64,000 nucleotides of DNA from Natronosalvus vescus. Lineage in GTDB: Archaea > Halobacteriota > Halobacteria > Halobacteriales > Natrialbaceae. Below, in pieces: positions 47,354-53,410 of the stretch. Location of the stretch: NCBI RefSeq assembly GCF_023973145.1, contig NZ_CP099546.1:3472001-3536000 (forward strand), written 5' to 3'. Position 1 is the first letter of the stretch; each line of letters begins with the position of its first letter. The notes under the pieces are model-generated. The model did no database searches. It saw nothing but the letters and a program-made list of their open reading frames with translations, and was not told where the DNA came from. The position numbers were made by a program, and so were the translations under genes.

Positions 47354-49510
47354 ATGACAGACAAACACGTACCACTACAGTCGCCGACGCTGGACGGCAC
47401 CAGTCGCCGGCTGTTTCTCAAGCTCACGGGCGCGGCTGGCGTGATGGCTGGCCTCGGCGGCCTGGCAACCGCCCAGGAGGAGACGGCGATCGAACTGGGC
47501 GGCGTCACTTCCGGCTGGGAAGGGAGAGCACCCCCCGAGATCGAGGGCGAAACGAATCCGACGTTGTCCCTCGAGCCGGGTGAAACGTATACCATCACCT
47601 GGGAGAACGTCGACGGCCTCCCCCACGACATCATCATCCTCGACGCAGAGGGCGAAGAAATCGTCGGCACGGAGATCATGGACGACCAGGGCGAAACCCA
47701 GACCCTCGAGTTCGAAGCGACCGAGGAGATGTCGGAGTACTACTGTTCGGTACATCCGACGACGATGCGCGGTGACATTCAGATCGGTGACGCCGAGGAC
47801 GACGAGGCGGAAGACGAGGCGGCTGACGAGGAGACCGACGTCGTCGGCGAGGGGCCGACGGTCGGTCTCGAGCGCGTCGCTGACGGCTTTGTCTCGCCGG
47901 TCGGCTTCGAAGTCGCACCGGGCGAGGACGACCGATACTACGTGCTCGATCAGCCTGGGCAGCTCTACGTGGTCGACGGCGACGGGGGCGACCCCCAGGA
48001 GTTCGTCGACCTCTCGGATCGGATGGTCGAGGTCGGCGACGCGACCGGCGGCGGCTTCGACGAACGTGGTCTGCTCGGTGTGGCGTTCCACCCAGACTAC
48101 CAGGAGAACCGCCGGCTCTTCGTTTACTACAGCGCCCCGCTTCGCGACGAACCAGCAACCGATGACGATGATACCGACGATGAGTACGAGTCGGACGATG
48201 CTGCCGACGAAAACGGCGATGACAACGAAACCGAAGCGAACGGAGAAGATAACGAAAACGGCGAGAACGACGAGGAGGAAGGATACGACCACACCGGCGT
48301 ACTCGCGGAATTCACCGCAACCGAGGACTTCGAGAGCGTCGATCCGGACTCCGAGGTGACGATCCTCGAGGTGCCTCAACCGCAATTCAACCACAACGGT
48401 GGCCCGCTGATCTTCGGACCTGACGGCTATCTGTACTGGGCGCTGGGGGACGGCGGCGGAGCAGACGACATCGGGTTCGGCCACGTCGAGGACTGGTACG
48501 ATGAGAACGAGGGCGGGAACGGCCAGGACACGACGGACAACCTGCTCGGGAGTATCCTCCGGATCGACGTCGATGTGGAGGGTGAAAACGGCGAGCCGTA
48601 CGGCATTCCCGAGGACAACCCGTTCGTCGACAGCGACGATGGCCTCGACGAGTACTTCGCCTGGGGGCTTCGCAACCCGTGGCGGGCCTCGTTCGACGAC
48701 GAGGGCCGATTCTTCGTCGCGGACGTCGGACAGGTGCTGTTCGAGGAGGTCAACATCGTCGAAAACGGCGGTAACTACGGCTGGAACGTCAGGGAAGGTA
48801 TCGAGTGTTTCAGCACGGATACGCCTGACGACCCGCCCGAAGAGTGCCCGACGACGACCCCAGAGGACGTGCGTGGCGGCGAAGAACTGATCGATCCCAT
48901 TATCCACTATCCACAGCGGGTCGACGGCGAGATTCTCGGTATCGCGGTGATCGGTGGCTACGTCTACGACAACGACACCGTTCCGGAGCTACAGGATCAC
49001 TACGTCTTCGGCGACTGGAGCGACGCGTTCGAAGCCCCCTCTGGGACGGTCTTTGCGTCGCCAACCGAGGAGTACGAGCCCATGGCGGGTCGAACCGAGG
49101 ACGACCTGTGGGAGATCGACCGCCTTTCGGTGGCCAACGCACCGGGTGGCGAACTCCACCGGTTCATCCTCTCGTTTGGCCAGGATCACGACGGCGAACT
49201 GTACGTCCTGACGACGGCACGGTACACCGACGGGGAGACCGGTGAAGTGTTTCGAATCGTCGCCGAGGAGGACGGCGAGGAGATCGAACCACCGGAGAAT
49301 CCGATCGGGGTCGACGACGAAGAGGAGGAAGACAGAGAGGAAGAAGTAGACGAGGAGGAAGTCGAAGACGAGGAGGAAGAAGCAGACGAGACGGAAGATA
49401 CCGATACAGAAACGGATGAAGACGAGGAATCGAATGACGACGGCACAGAGTCGGATGAGAGCACCGAGACGGAGTCCGATACCGACACGAACGACGAAGA
49501 CAGCGAATAG
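47354..49510 (+). CDS. Secreted cupredoxin-PQQ-type sugar dehydrogenase fusion
   Basis: A 718-residue protein. The Tat signal (TSRRLFLKLTGAAGVMAG) is cleaved near AQEE. Residues about 60-135 are a plastocyanin-like domain with copper ligands His (GLPHDII), Cys and His (YYCSVHPTTM) and Met. From about 170 comes a sorbosone/glucose dehydrogenase beta-propeller (GFVSPVGFEVAPGEDDRYYVLDQPGQ, QPQFNHNGGPLIFGPDGYLYWALGDGG), which in the family binds PQQ. A 45-residue acidic insert interrupts it near residue 265-310, and an 80-residue Glu/Asp tail ends the chain. The fusion suggests a soluble dehydrogenase with its own copper electron acceptor. Confidence 0.9.
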   Translation: MTDKHVPLQSPTLDGTSRRLFLKLTGAAGVMAGLGGLATAQEETAIELGGVTSGWEGRAPPEIEGETNPTLSLEPGETYTITWENVDGLPHDIIILDAEGEEIVGTEIMDDQGETQTLEFEATEEMSEYYCSVHPTTMRGDIQIGDAEDDEAEDEAADEETDVVGEGPTVGLERVADGFVSPVGFEVAPGEDDRYYVLDQPGQLYVVDGDGGDPQEFVDLSDRMVEVGDATGGGFDERGLLGVAFHPDYQENRRLFVYYSAPLRDEPATDDDDTDDEYESDDAADENGDDNETEANGEDNENGENDEEEGYDHTGVLAEFTATEDFESVDPDSEVTILEVPQPQFNHNGGPLIFGPDGYLYWALGDGGGADDIGFGHVEDWYDENEGGNGQDTTDNLLGSILRIDVDVEGENGEPYGIPEDNPFVDSDDGLDEYFAWGLRNPWRASFDDEGRFFVADVGQVLFEEVNIVENGGNYGWNVREGIECFSTDTPDDPPEECPTTTPEDVRGGEELIDPIIHYPQRVDGEILGIAVIGGYVYDNDTVPELQDHYVFGDWSDAFEAPSGTVFASPTEEYEPMAGRTEDDLWEIDRLSVANAPGGELHRFILSFGQDHDGELYVLTTARYTDGETGEVFRIVAEEDGEEIEPPENPIGVDDEEEEDREEEVDEEEVEDEEEEADETEDTDTETDEDEESNDDGTESDESTETESDTDTNDEDSE

Positions 49511-49770: not shown

Positions 49771-52035
49771 ATGAAAAACAGTTCAAAGCGTGGTCAAGTC
49801 GTGAACTCGTCCGCTGAATCGGTGAAGCGACGACGGTACCTCGGTCTATGTGCTACCGCCCTGACGGCTTCCCTCGCAGGATGTTCGGCGTTGACCGACC
49901 ACGAGTTCGTTGCCAATCGGGTTTACCTTCCCGAGTCGAGCGCTCACGGCTACGATGAGGTGGTCGCGGAGACGATTGCGATCGAGGAACAGGAGTCGGT
50001 CGGCGGGATGAACGTGCAGGTGAGCGTGACGAATCACCTCGTCGCCTATCAGGAACTCGGTAGTGACGGCGACGACAGGGGCGGAGCGGAAGACGGGTTT
50101 TCGGATGCGTCGGCCATGCACGAACTCCTCGGATCCGAGGGCGGCGTCGCCGTCCCCGCGAACGCGATGGGGATGGCGGCGGGAGCGCCGCCGTTCGCCT
50201 CGAGCGAGGAGGAGTGGGTGGTCGATCCGAGTCAAACGGCAGTCCTCGTTCCCGAGGGATCGCCGCGCTCGGAGGAGGATTCCGTAAACGCCGAACCGGG
50301 GGTTCCGCTCGTCGTGACCTCGCGCCCCGAGCTCGAGTCGGTGCTCCCGCTACCAGACGGACAATCCAGCATCGAACTGCCGGACGCTCGAGCGGATCGG
50401 ATGGAGCTTCCGGACGGACGAAGCACGGTCGGGCGGCTCGAAGAGAGTGCCTGGCCAGATTCATTCGAAGCCAAGTTGGACGGCGTGTTGTTCCCCGGTG
50501 ATCACTTCTTCCCCGGCGACTCATTCATCCCTGGCGATTCCTTCGATGCGGTTCGAGTGGCGTACATCCCTGGGGATTCGTTCTTCCCGGGCGACCACTG
50601 GATCCCCGGCGACTCATTCATCCCTGGCGATTCCTTCGAACCCGAACGATGGAACGCGGAGCTGTTCTCCGCGGGGGACACAATCGAAGCCGACGTTGTC
50701 GTCGCGCCGCCGCACGTCTTCGCGCCGGCCGTCGAAGTGAACGCCCGCGCCGAACTCCCCATCGAAGAACTCGAGATCGGCCGCCTCGACGGAGCGCCGG
50801 TCGGTGCGACGCTGATCATCGGGGACAACGGAGACGTCGCGCCGATGGCGGCGTTCCCGGGCGACATGTGGTTCCCCGGCGATCACTTCACGGTCACGGA
50901 ACCCGCCGTGTTGATGCCGCTCGACGAGTTCTACCCAGGTGGCATGTGGGACGAGGAACGCTATCCCGCGGGGTGGAGCGACTGGATCGGCAAAGGCTAC
51001 TCTGGGGATGCGTACGACGAAGGATACGGCGTGTTCTTCCCCGGTGAAGAGGCGGTCGGACGACTCTACGATGATCGAGAGTCGGTCGGGAGGCTCTACG
51101 GCGAAGAGGCTGTCGAGCAGCTCAACGGGGAAGAGGCAGTCGGGAGACTCTACGTCGCCGAACCCGGAGCGAAGATTCCGGCTGGGCCGACCGTCATCTT
51201 TTTCCCCGGCGGCATGTGGTTCCCCGGCGGCACGTGGTTCCCTGGTGGCACGTGGCTGGAGGAGGCGTTCCCCGGCGGCATGTGGTTCCCCGGTGACACG
51301 TGGTTCCCCGGTGACATGTGGTTCCCAGGCGATTCGTACCTCGAGATGGAACTCGGAGCCGGATTCACGAGCGCCGTCGAGTTCTCCGAGGAGTTCCCTG
51401 GCGAGACGTTCATCCCCGGCGACTCCTTCACCCCGGTGGGCGCGGTTCACTACTCAATGGGAACAGACGAACTGCTGGCGGGCTACGCCGCCGCTGGTGC
51501 CGACACAGCAGGAACTCCCTGGGAAGCGATGGCGATGACCGGCGGCGACCTCTCCGACCTCGACCCGAGGGCGGGCGAGATGACCCTCGCTGGACTCTCC
51601 TCGCCGGCAGCGAGCGTGGCGGGTCAGTCGCTCAATCCAATCGCGAACATGTCGCCGTCGGAACTCCTCACCGACGGAGAGGCTCGGTCGTTGCTCGGAC
51701 AGGCCGGCCTCGAGGGTGCCGACGGCAAGTGGATCCGAGGGCCCGACAGAATTCACACGGCCGAGACCCAGGTGGCCGACTTCGAGAGCCCCCACCAGGT
51801 CGAGACGTTCGCCGGGCTGACAGGGTCGGAAGACAATCCGACAGTCGTGATCACCCGAGTCGGCCTCGTCGAGAGCGATGACGACGTGGTCGTGCTCTTC
51901 TCGAGCAACGGGTGGGGTGTCGACCAGACGTCCCGCGAGTACGTCGGTGACGACGGGTACGTGACCGAAGCCGCCTTCGAGGACGATACCGAGCACGTCC
52001 TCGAGGTGTTCGGTTCGTTCGTGTACGACGGTTGA
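49771..52035 (+). CDS. Lipoprotein built around FPGD-type hexapeptide repeats (DUF6517-like ends)
   Basis: A 754-residue Tat lipoprotein (VKRRRYLGLC, then lipobox LAGC at about residues 35-38). N-terminal residues to about 100 and C-terminal residues from about 590 (LDPRAGEMTLAGLSS, GQSLNPIANMSPSELLTDGEARSLLGQAG, ETFAGLTGSEDNP) resemble the small haloarchaeal DUF6517 lipoproteins. Between them lies a huge insertion. It holds runs of [FI]-P-G-[DG]-[SHMT]-[FWY] at residues 241-258, about 266-291, 362-373, 478-495, 500-523 and 542-553, plus a 10-residue EEAVGRLYDD-like repeat at about 425-465. Directly downstream is an insertion sequence. Confidence 0.78.
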   Translation: MKNSSKRGQVVNSSAESVKRRRYLGLCATALTASLAGCSALTDHEFVANRVYLPESSAHGYDEVVAETIAIEEQESVGGMNVQVSVTNHLVAYQELGSDGDDRGGAEDGFSDASAMHELLGSEGGVAVPANAMGMAAGAPPFASSEEEWVVDPSQTAVLVPEGSPRSEEDSVNAEPGVPLVVTSRPELESVLPLPDGQSSIELPDARADRMELPDGRSTVGRLEESAWPDSFEAKLDGVLFPGDHFFPGDSFIPGDSFDAVRVAYIPGDSFFPGDHWIPGDSFIPGDSFEPERWNAELFSAGDTIEADVVVAPPHVFAPAVEVNARAELPIEELEIGRLDGAPVGATLIIGDNGDVAPMAAFPGDMWFPGDHFTVTEPAVLMPLDEFYPGGMWDEERYPAGWSDWIGKGYSGDAYDEGYGVFFPGEEAVGRLYDDRESVGRLYGEEAVEQLNGEEAVGRLYVAEPGAKIPAGPTVIFFPGGMWFPGGTWFPGGTWLEEAFPGGMWFPGDTWFPGDMWFPGDSYLEMELGAGFTSAVEFSEEFPGETFIPGDSFTPVGAVHYSMGTDELLAGYAAAGADTAGTPWEAMAMTGGDLSDLDPRAGEMTLAGLSSPAASVAGQSLNPIANMSPSELLTDGEARSLLGQAGLEGADGKWIRGPDRIHTAETQVADFESPHQVETFAGLTGSEDNPTVVITRVGLVESDDDVVVLFSSNGWGVDQTSREYVGDDGYVTEAAFEDDTEHVLEVFGSFVYDG
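50491..51429 (+). repeat. DNA encoding FPGD hexapeptide repeats
   Basis: About twenty 18-bp units of the form TTCCCCGGCGAC plus two codons, some in perfect tandem (50491-50544; 51202-51255; 51268-51339) and some isolated. Units differ mainly at the fifth codon. Between 51043 and 51165 a second repeat of about 30-33 bp encodes EEAVGRLY-type units. Confidence 0.85.
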
Positions 52036-52043
52036 CATCCCCC

Positions 52044-53410
52044 CGCCCTTACCAGTAGTTGCCGATTCAACGCAGTCAGCTGAGCGAAGCTGGTCGATCG
52101 AACGTCTTGGATTGTGGCGCTCCGACGATCGTTACGACACAGCGAGAAAGAGAGCGAAGAAACGCCGCTGCTGGCGGCGTTTCTGAGCGTTTCCACTCGG
52201 TGGCGGCGTTCTGACCGATCAGCTCGGTCGGACTGATTACCGCCTATCCGTAATCGGTCACAACGACGAATTCGCGGAAGAGACGCGTCGAAATCTGCGG
52301 TTTCTTTGGCACAGCACCGGCTGAGACGAGCACATTTGCGAGGATCCACAGATTGTACATCGAAACTGCGAACAGGAAGTAAAAGAGCCGCACCGAGAAC
52401 GTCGGTGACGACGTTCGCGGGAGGAAGTCACCGATCTGGCGATAAGAAGTTTCAATTCCCCAGCGGCGGCGGAACGCCGCCGCGTACGCTCTCGCCGACT
52501 CTGTCTTGAGCTCGAGGTTCGTCACGAACCAGACGTGCTCGTCTTCGGTTGATCGATGTGGAACGGCAAACACGGTTACTCCGACTGAAGCGGTCGGCTT
52601 GCGTTTTCGTTGCATCCGATACTCGTCGACGACCGTCTCAGCGCCGGCGCTGAGACGGGCTTTCATCCCTTTACTCGGGCGTGCACGGACAAGATAGTCG
52701 ACGTCGAGCTGTTCGAGTTCCGCAACGACGTGAACCTGGTAGAAGCCTCTGTCGAGATAGACGTGTCTAATCGAGACGTACTCTCGTGCCGTTTCGAGCA
52801 GCGAGCGAACGGCGTCGCGCTTTTCGCGGAAGCCGTTCGCCTCCAGCGCCAGCACGTCAAGCGTGAATCGCGTTCCTGGTGCGACGACACAGATCGTCGC
52901 AAAACAGTACGTTCGATTGGTTCCCTGGTCGGGATAGGTGATCAGGACGTGGTCAGTGTCAACGTCGCCGTAAAACCGCCATTCGTGAAGATCGATCGCA
53001 ACATCGACACACTCGGGTAACAGACGTAATTCCCGAAGAATCTGGAAGAGATCGTCGCGGACGCCATCGAACTGGTCGTCGATGGCGTCCGCCTCCAGAT
53101 TCCGGAGGTGGTAGAGCAGTGATTTTGCGAGCCCGTTGCGAGCCGTCGACGTAACGTCGACGGACTCGCCGTCATGGAGTTGGCACGTTTTCCCGGCTGT
53201 ATTGGCGAACTCCTGTTCGAAGGCACCACGAGAGAGGACTTTCTGGAAGTCCTCTCTCGTATAGCTCCCACAGGGTTTGATGTCGAAATCGAGCGCTGGA
53301 TAAACGACGGTAGATGCGGCGCGACAGACTTGTTTTGCTTCGGCCGTCTTGACCATAGCCACCCTACCAGCAACGCCGCAAACTAGGTTCGGCAACTACT
53401 GTGAAGGGCG
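52044..53410 (-). mobile_element. IS4-like insertion sequence with 22-bp terminal inverted repeats
   Basis: The ends at 52044-52065 and 53389-53410 are inverted copies of each other with 20 matches in 22. The perfect inner core is CAGTAGTTGCCGA. The element is 1367 bp and holds one transposase on the minus strand. No target-site duplication is obvious at the flanks, so the insertion may be old or rearranged. It landed 8 bp after the stop of the FPGD-repeat gene. The subfamily (ISH3- or ISH8-like) is not settled. Confidence 0.85.
52244..53356 (-). CDS. DDE transposase, IS4-like
   Basis: A 370-residue transposase from the ATG at 53356 (MVKTAEAKQVCRAAS). The acidic triad candidates are Asp in VAIDLHEWRFYGD, Asp in HVYLDRGFYQ and Glu in RRRWGIETSYRQIG; the last matches the IS4-family Y-x2-R-x3-E type signature. 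The chain is uninterrupted, so the element may still be mobile. It cuts and pastes DNA at the 22-bp terminal repeats. An alternative upstream start at 53395 lies inside the terminal repeat and is less likely. Confidence 0.9.
   Translation of the reverse strand: MVKTAEAKQVCRAASTVVYPALDFDIKPCGSYTREDFQKVLSRGAFEQEFANTAGKTCQLHDGESVDVTSTARNGLAKSLLYHLRNLEADAIDDQFDGVRDDLFQILRELRLLPECVDVAIDLHEWRFYGDVDTDHVLITYPDQGTNRTYCFATICVVAPGTRFTLDVLALEANGFREKRDAVRSLLETAREYVSIRHVYLDRGFYQVHVVAELEQLDVDYLVRARPSKGMKARLSAGAETVVDEYRMQRKRKPTASVGVTVFAVPHRSTEDEHVWFVTNLELKTESARAYAAAFRRRWGIETSYRQIGDFLPRTSSPTFSVRLFYFLFAVSMYNLWILANVLVSAGAVPKKPQISTRLFREFVVVTDYG

Follow-up and report, generated by a model that had tools for sequence, protein, structure and literature searches.

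The hexapeptide [FI]PG[DG]x[FWY], which is arrayed in a predicted surface lipoprotein of Natronosalvus vescus, appears on strong sequence evidence to be a real, selected and recurrent motif of exported proteins. The array gene lies in a window of 64,000 nucleotides of the single contig (NZ_CP099546.1, positions 3,472,001 to 3,536,000), and the hexapeptide was also found in proteins exported by other haloarchaea and by members of at least six bacterial phyla.

The array gene is a complete ORF encoding 754 amino acids in an uninterrupted frame (Table 1), and a genome-wide search of the one-contig genome returned it as the sole match of its kind. The Pfam family PF20127 (DUF6517) matches the protein in two stretches with 55.8 bits against a cut-off of 23.9. 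Profiles built from both halves of the domain leave 508 residues between them, compared with 211-531 in the other array-bearing members, 39 in the relative L037 and 5-17 in ordinary haloarchaeal members. The window protein resembles the family in that the profile matches above the cut-off to either side of the insert, and in its predicted lipoprotein signal; it differs in the long, array-bearing connection. A short connection is a trait of ordinary members rather than a formal criterion of the family, and the window protein lacks it. The N-terminal KRRRYLGL..LAGC, read by eye, fits a Tat lipobox, and homologues carry similar signals. The product is a predicted Tat lipoprotein of the cell surface. 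The earlier note's description of a DUF6517 lipoprotein whose large insert is rich in hexapeptides is borne out, with the surface location remaining a prediction from the lipobox.

Table 1. Features of the array gene, with positions counted from the first nucleotide of the window
Feature	Position	Strand	Basis
Complete gene, predicted DUF6517-family lipoprotein with hexapeptide-array insert, 754 aa	49771..52035	+	ORF and Pfam
DUF6517 core, N-terminal half, approximately residues 18-98	49822..50064	+	Profile search, Pfam
Predicted Tat signal with lipobox, KRRRYLGL...LAGC, Cys38	49828..49884	+	Read from sequence; homologues similar
Array-bearing insert, 508 residues, approximately residues 99-606	50065..51588	+	Profile search
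Array block 1, residues 241-289: FPGDHF FPGDSF IPGDSF ... IPGDSF FPGDHW IPGDSF IPGDSF	50491..50637	+	Pattern, counting
Array block 2, residues 362-373: FPGDMW FPGDHF	50854..50889	+	Pattern, counting
Single copy YPGGMW, residues 388-393	50932..50949	+	Counting
Word YPAGWSDW, residues 398-405	50962..50985	+	Also present in a Natrialba swarupiae homologue and in a Balneolaceae lipoprotein that is otherwise unrelated
VGRLY words, approximately residues 430-461	51058..51153	+	Counting
Array block 3, residues 478-523: FPGGMW FPGGTW FPGGTW ... FPGGMW FPGDTW FPGDMW FPGDSY	51202..51339	+	Pattern, counting
Array block 4, residues 542-553: FPGETF IPGDSF	51394..51429	+	Pattern, counting
DUF6517 core, C-terminal half, residues 607-754; only here is the predicted structure fairly confident	51589..52032	+	Pfam, profiles, AlphaFold2

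Upstream of the array gene (47354-49510, + strand) lies a gene for a Tat-signal protein with a glucose/sorbosone dehydrogenase domain (GSDH, Pfam) and a C-terminal tail that is very acidic and of low complexity. Downstream (52244-53395, - strand) is an ORF for a putative DDE transposase.

The insert holds 17 strict copies of the hexapeptide, or 20 if the pattern also admits Y as the first residue, E as the fourth, or a free end, in agreement with the previous estimate of about twenty. In 10,000 rounds of shuffling the window protein, the mean was 0.01 hexapeptides and the maximum was 2. At the DNA level, a two-copy pattern gave 12 matches in the window, all on the + strand inside the array gene, against an expectation of 0. 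Two minor repeat types had been reported as well; both occur, but they are thin, with VGRLY present three times alongside two other GRL words, and LPDG twice. The word YPAGWSDW occurs once.

Repeats of surface proteins are a known kind of structure, and no described family covers this hexapeptide in the libraries searched, as had been supposed. The array gave no match above threshold against Pfam, NCBIfam or PDB sequences, only weak sub-threshold ones; the bacterial arrays tested against Pfam and NCBIfam were likewise not recognised, and literature searches on the motif and on DUF6517 returned nothing relevant. The six-residue period is shared with the hexapeptides of left-handed beta-helices, but the window protein has 0 tandem pairs of their hexads ([LIV][GAED]xx[STAV]x) and no such Pfam match. 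Asp/Gly-rich turns in exported repeat proteins are also a feature of the RTX calcium-binding repeats, whose GGxGxD nonapeptides are absent from the window protein, again with no Pfam match. The elastin-like repeats (VPGVG, APGVGV) carry a tandem Pro-Gly turn at a regular spacing of 5-6 residues, and this spacing is common to both. Unlike them, the hexapeptide has aromatic residues at positions 1 and 6, a mostly acidic position 4 and few copies, and its arrays mostly keep to one flavour per protein in exported proteins of prokaryotes.

An initial protein scan of genome contigs gave no relatives, whereas a DNA pattern scan did. Among 273 haloarchaeal genomes, the two-copy pattern located arrays in DUF6517 proteins and in P0002, the second array lipoprotein of a Salinarchaeum MAG, together with a small number of single pairs in isolation. 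A control of matched composition, with Pro-Gly reversed to Gly-Pro, produced 4 matches, all of them single and isolated. Array-bearing close relatives occur in two other Natronosalvus members with ten IPGSTW/IPGSSW-type copies each, one of these being Natronosalvus amylolyticus, where the gene resides on a 417-kb plasmid. The relative in a Salinarchaeum MAG has FPGDSF/FPGDAF copies, and others have YPGSMW, FPGETY, FPDSTF/FPDGYF or quite different tandem words. The last group includes L049 (GNNPFLT, five times) and L047 (DRHGPM), which suggests that repeats of several types can be accommodated at the insert site. With the hexapeptides masked, several types of insert can be told apart: one is common to the window protein, L100, the Natronosalvus relatives and L034; another to L038, L041, L047 and L049; and a further one is that of Natrialba swarupiae (L271), which is related to P0003 and L043. 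For P0002, a search of 392 haloarchaeal genomes gave no full-length relative, the other matches falling on its signal and acidic region.

The same array module can stand on different C-terminal parts. P0003 and L043 share 50% identity over approximately 350 residues, array included, and differ at their C-terminal ends, that of L043 being beta-helix-like just below the Pfam cut-off and that of P0003 having no Pfam match. P0003 is a plasmid lipoprotein of Natrinema halophilum (L273:5638-7767); its C-terminal domain contains GHAWMRH and NCLDWA, possibly as part of a Cys/His hydrolase, and is followed by two small genes.

Beyond the haloarchaea, a three-copy pattern in which residue 4 was left free detected at least 119 stretches in 84,980 species genomes. 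The earlier note had missed this recurrence in many bacteria and in other haloarchaeal surface proteins. Among the matches listed, residue 4 was by far most often Asp, despite the freedom of the pattern. Those listed with D or E at this position number 29, a few of them haloarchaeal, and 23 of the 29 lie in ORFs with an export signal, compared with 4 of the 90 other listed matches; an export-signal ORF was here one that encodes 130 aa or more and starts with a hydrophobic, signal-like stretch, by a hydropathy heuristic rather than SignalP. The carriers include Porphyrobacter, Maricaulis, Alkalicaulis, Oceanicaulis, Phaeobacter and Roseovarius, and further Lujinxingia, Myxococcales, Gemmatimonadota, Balneolaceae, Salinibacteraceae, Flavobacteriaceae, Spirochaetaceae and a Clostridiales MAG. 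Judged by their names, the bacteria are mostly marine, saline or soda-lake organisms. Viral contigs contained no array, which says little because the control pattern also gave 0.

Approximately ten scaffolds carry the hexapeptide, with no similarity detectable between them outside the repeats. With the repeats masked, these comprise two beta-helix groups, two small secreted groups of which one has Tat signals, the L136/L268 lipoproteins, DUF6517 and several singletons. Homology between archaeal and bacterial scaffolds was considered and rejected, as masking left none except the short word YPAGWSDW. This word is common to haloarchaeal proteins (the window protein, L116/L271) and the otherwise unrelated Balneolaceae lipoprotein L136.

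At five alphaproteobacterial loci (L095, L203, L119, L171 and L196), a gene for a Hanks-type Ser/Thr kinase is found no more than a few kilobases from the array gene, and at four of these an ECF sigma factor is also present, none being detected at L171. The kinase and sigma-factor genes beside the arrays suggest that the alphaproteobacterial array proteins form part of a surface programme under environmental control. In Xanthomonas citri, a kinase is described that phosphorylates its ECF-type partner (PMC13147305). Three arrays of Myxococcota/Bradymonadia also have kinases nearby, but at a greater distance, and kinases are common there anyway.

The codons of the arrays bear on how they arose and are kept. 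In simple counts over non-independent units, most bacterial arrays have a within-array pN of 0 with pS from 0.21 to 1.0; among them are those of Maricaulis (pS 0.81), Oceanicaulis (0.84), Phaeobacter (0.96) and Lujinxingia (0.53). The seven FPGDNF copies of Maricaulis are written in seven different 18-mers. In Porphyrobacter TH134 (L203), four units read FPGDML instead of the FPGDMF of its relatives, and three different codons encode their Leu. Because synonymous divergence accompanies a pN of 0, the array copies are, as judged from their codons, under peptide-level selection and not products of fresh slippage. The window array has a pS of 0.53 and a pN of 0.25 (pN/pS 0.47), its amino-acid changes clustering at residues 1, 4, 5 and 6. 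The previous claim that variation falls mostly at one codon is right in so far as changes are clustered, but the Pro, Gly and Asp codons also vary synonymously.

The expansion by slippage proposed at the same time was not upheld. Third positions of Pro and Gly codons vary freely, pN/pS stays below 1, and the two other Natronosalvus species (G001 and G004) have the same 10 copies, with units and codons matching almost position by position. A neutral, functionless low-complexity insert generated by slippage could account for the 18-base tandem layout and for the variable presence of the insert among DUF6517 proteins, such as the gap of L037. It is nonetheless very improbable given the synonymous divergence under strong amino-acid conservation, the copy number and codon register kept between two species, and the concentration of arrays in exported proteins. 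Between the closely related L203 and L112, pS is 0.79 in the array and 0.33 in the flanks, so that either turnover or faster divergence has affected the array. A comparison of copy number in the family of Porphyrobacter found a match only in the query genome among 150 sampled genomes. Identical peptide units with diverged codons are also known from multi-copy peptide precursors, and this resemblance is what would commend a precursor that yields short peptides by cleavage or modification. That explanation is very improbable, since spacers and cleavage sites are missing between the units, dispersed copies sit inside longer domains, and no processing enzyme was present among the neighbours examined.

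The copies within a protein tend to one flavour. Residue-5 identity within proteins, again a simple count over non-independent units, is 0.518, compared with a mean of 0.152 and a maximum of 0.185 when units are shuffled among proteins. Residues 4 and 6 covary, G or S at 4 going with W at 6 and D or E with F, Y, L or M (17:9 versus 9:47; Fisher p approximately 2e-5, with phylogeny ignored). Self-packing is the simplest reading of a uniform flavour, because like residues then have to fit one another; different array proteins of a single genome, on the other hand, carry different flavours. On these two grounds, the uniform flavour and the covariation, the preferred reading is that the PG-turn repeats pack on their own kind to form a surface stalk or cohesive element, to which a probability of roughly 0.37 is given. 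Recurrence on unrelated scaffolds, the high share of export signals, the selection on the peptide and the neighbouring kinase and ECF sigma-factor genes also speak for it, and the occurrence of one array module on different C-terminal parts, as in L043 and P0003, is consistent with it. Uniformity is weaker in the window protein than in bacteria, because it mixes F with W and D with G and has the higher pN/pS; this mixing counts against self-packing, as do dispersed single copies, which do not obviously stack. Uniform flavour may also be due in part to independent births of arrays from one seed unit.

One flavour within each protein would also be expected if each hexapeptide docked to a cognate partner, be it a surface protein, a glycan or an ion, with the flavour tracking that partner. 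An acidic residue 4 could contact ions, and in a Balneolaceae/Salinibacteraceae orthologue pair the tandem and dispersed copies shift jointly from FPGD[NSH]F to FPGD[EQ]L. Such multivalent docking is rather unlikely: a single genome contains four flavours (FPGDSF, FPGDAY/F, FPGDTW and FPGDEL), which would require several partners, and the neighbours examined include no conserved partner gene besides the cytosolic kinase and sigma-factor genes. It is more speculative still, and quite improbable, that flavour-specific PGDxF arrays on exported proteins of halophilic archaea and bacteria assemble only with arrays of their own flavour, as a code running across domains by which homotypic recognition would sort the proteins of the surface or adjacent cells.

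Structure prediction gives little order to the arrays. AlphaFold2 returned pLDDT values of 22-34 for those of the window protein and of a small bacterial family, from alignments of only 4 and 11 sequences, and drew them as unstructured loops between folded elements. Over residues 651-750, the C-terminal DUF6517 core reached block values of mostly 57-85; for the small bacterial family, the core came to approximately 70. Searching the PDB by sequence gave no significant relative, and Foldseek with the bacterial model gave no significant match. The solenoid or calcium-binding rod suggested in the earlier note finds no support in the array values. The low array pLDDT and the lack of a PDB relative count against self-packing. 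The loops, the PG at six-residue spacing and the copy number that varies among homologues would also suit an elastic or extended linker, in which the repeats form a loose, elastin-like beta-spiral and act as a flexible spacer without a packed fold. This linker is a possible but doubtful alternative, as a plain spacer needs neither identical aromatic and residue-5 choices with a pN of 0 nor covariation of residues 4 and 6.

The window protein is most likely exported via Tat and lipid-anchored outside the haloarchaeal cell, displaying the Pro-Gly-turn insert from the middle of its DUF6517 domain. Under the self-packing reading, each unit may form a tight PG turn with aromatic residues to either side and pack on identical neighbours in the same chain, possibly also between chains. 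The packed units could then build a compact stalk or cohesive patch, by which the scaffold domain would be held off the cell or stuck to other matter.

The hexapeptide is apparently unnamed, despite spanning the Archaea and several bacterial phyla. As codons drift while the peptide stays constant, the arrays offer a natural experiment on repeat uniformity without homogenisation of the DNA. The hexapeptide is probably a real building block of cell surfaces, and it provides a testable motif for the way in which many uncharacterised exported proteins of saline habitats may be put together.
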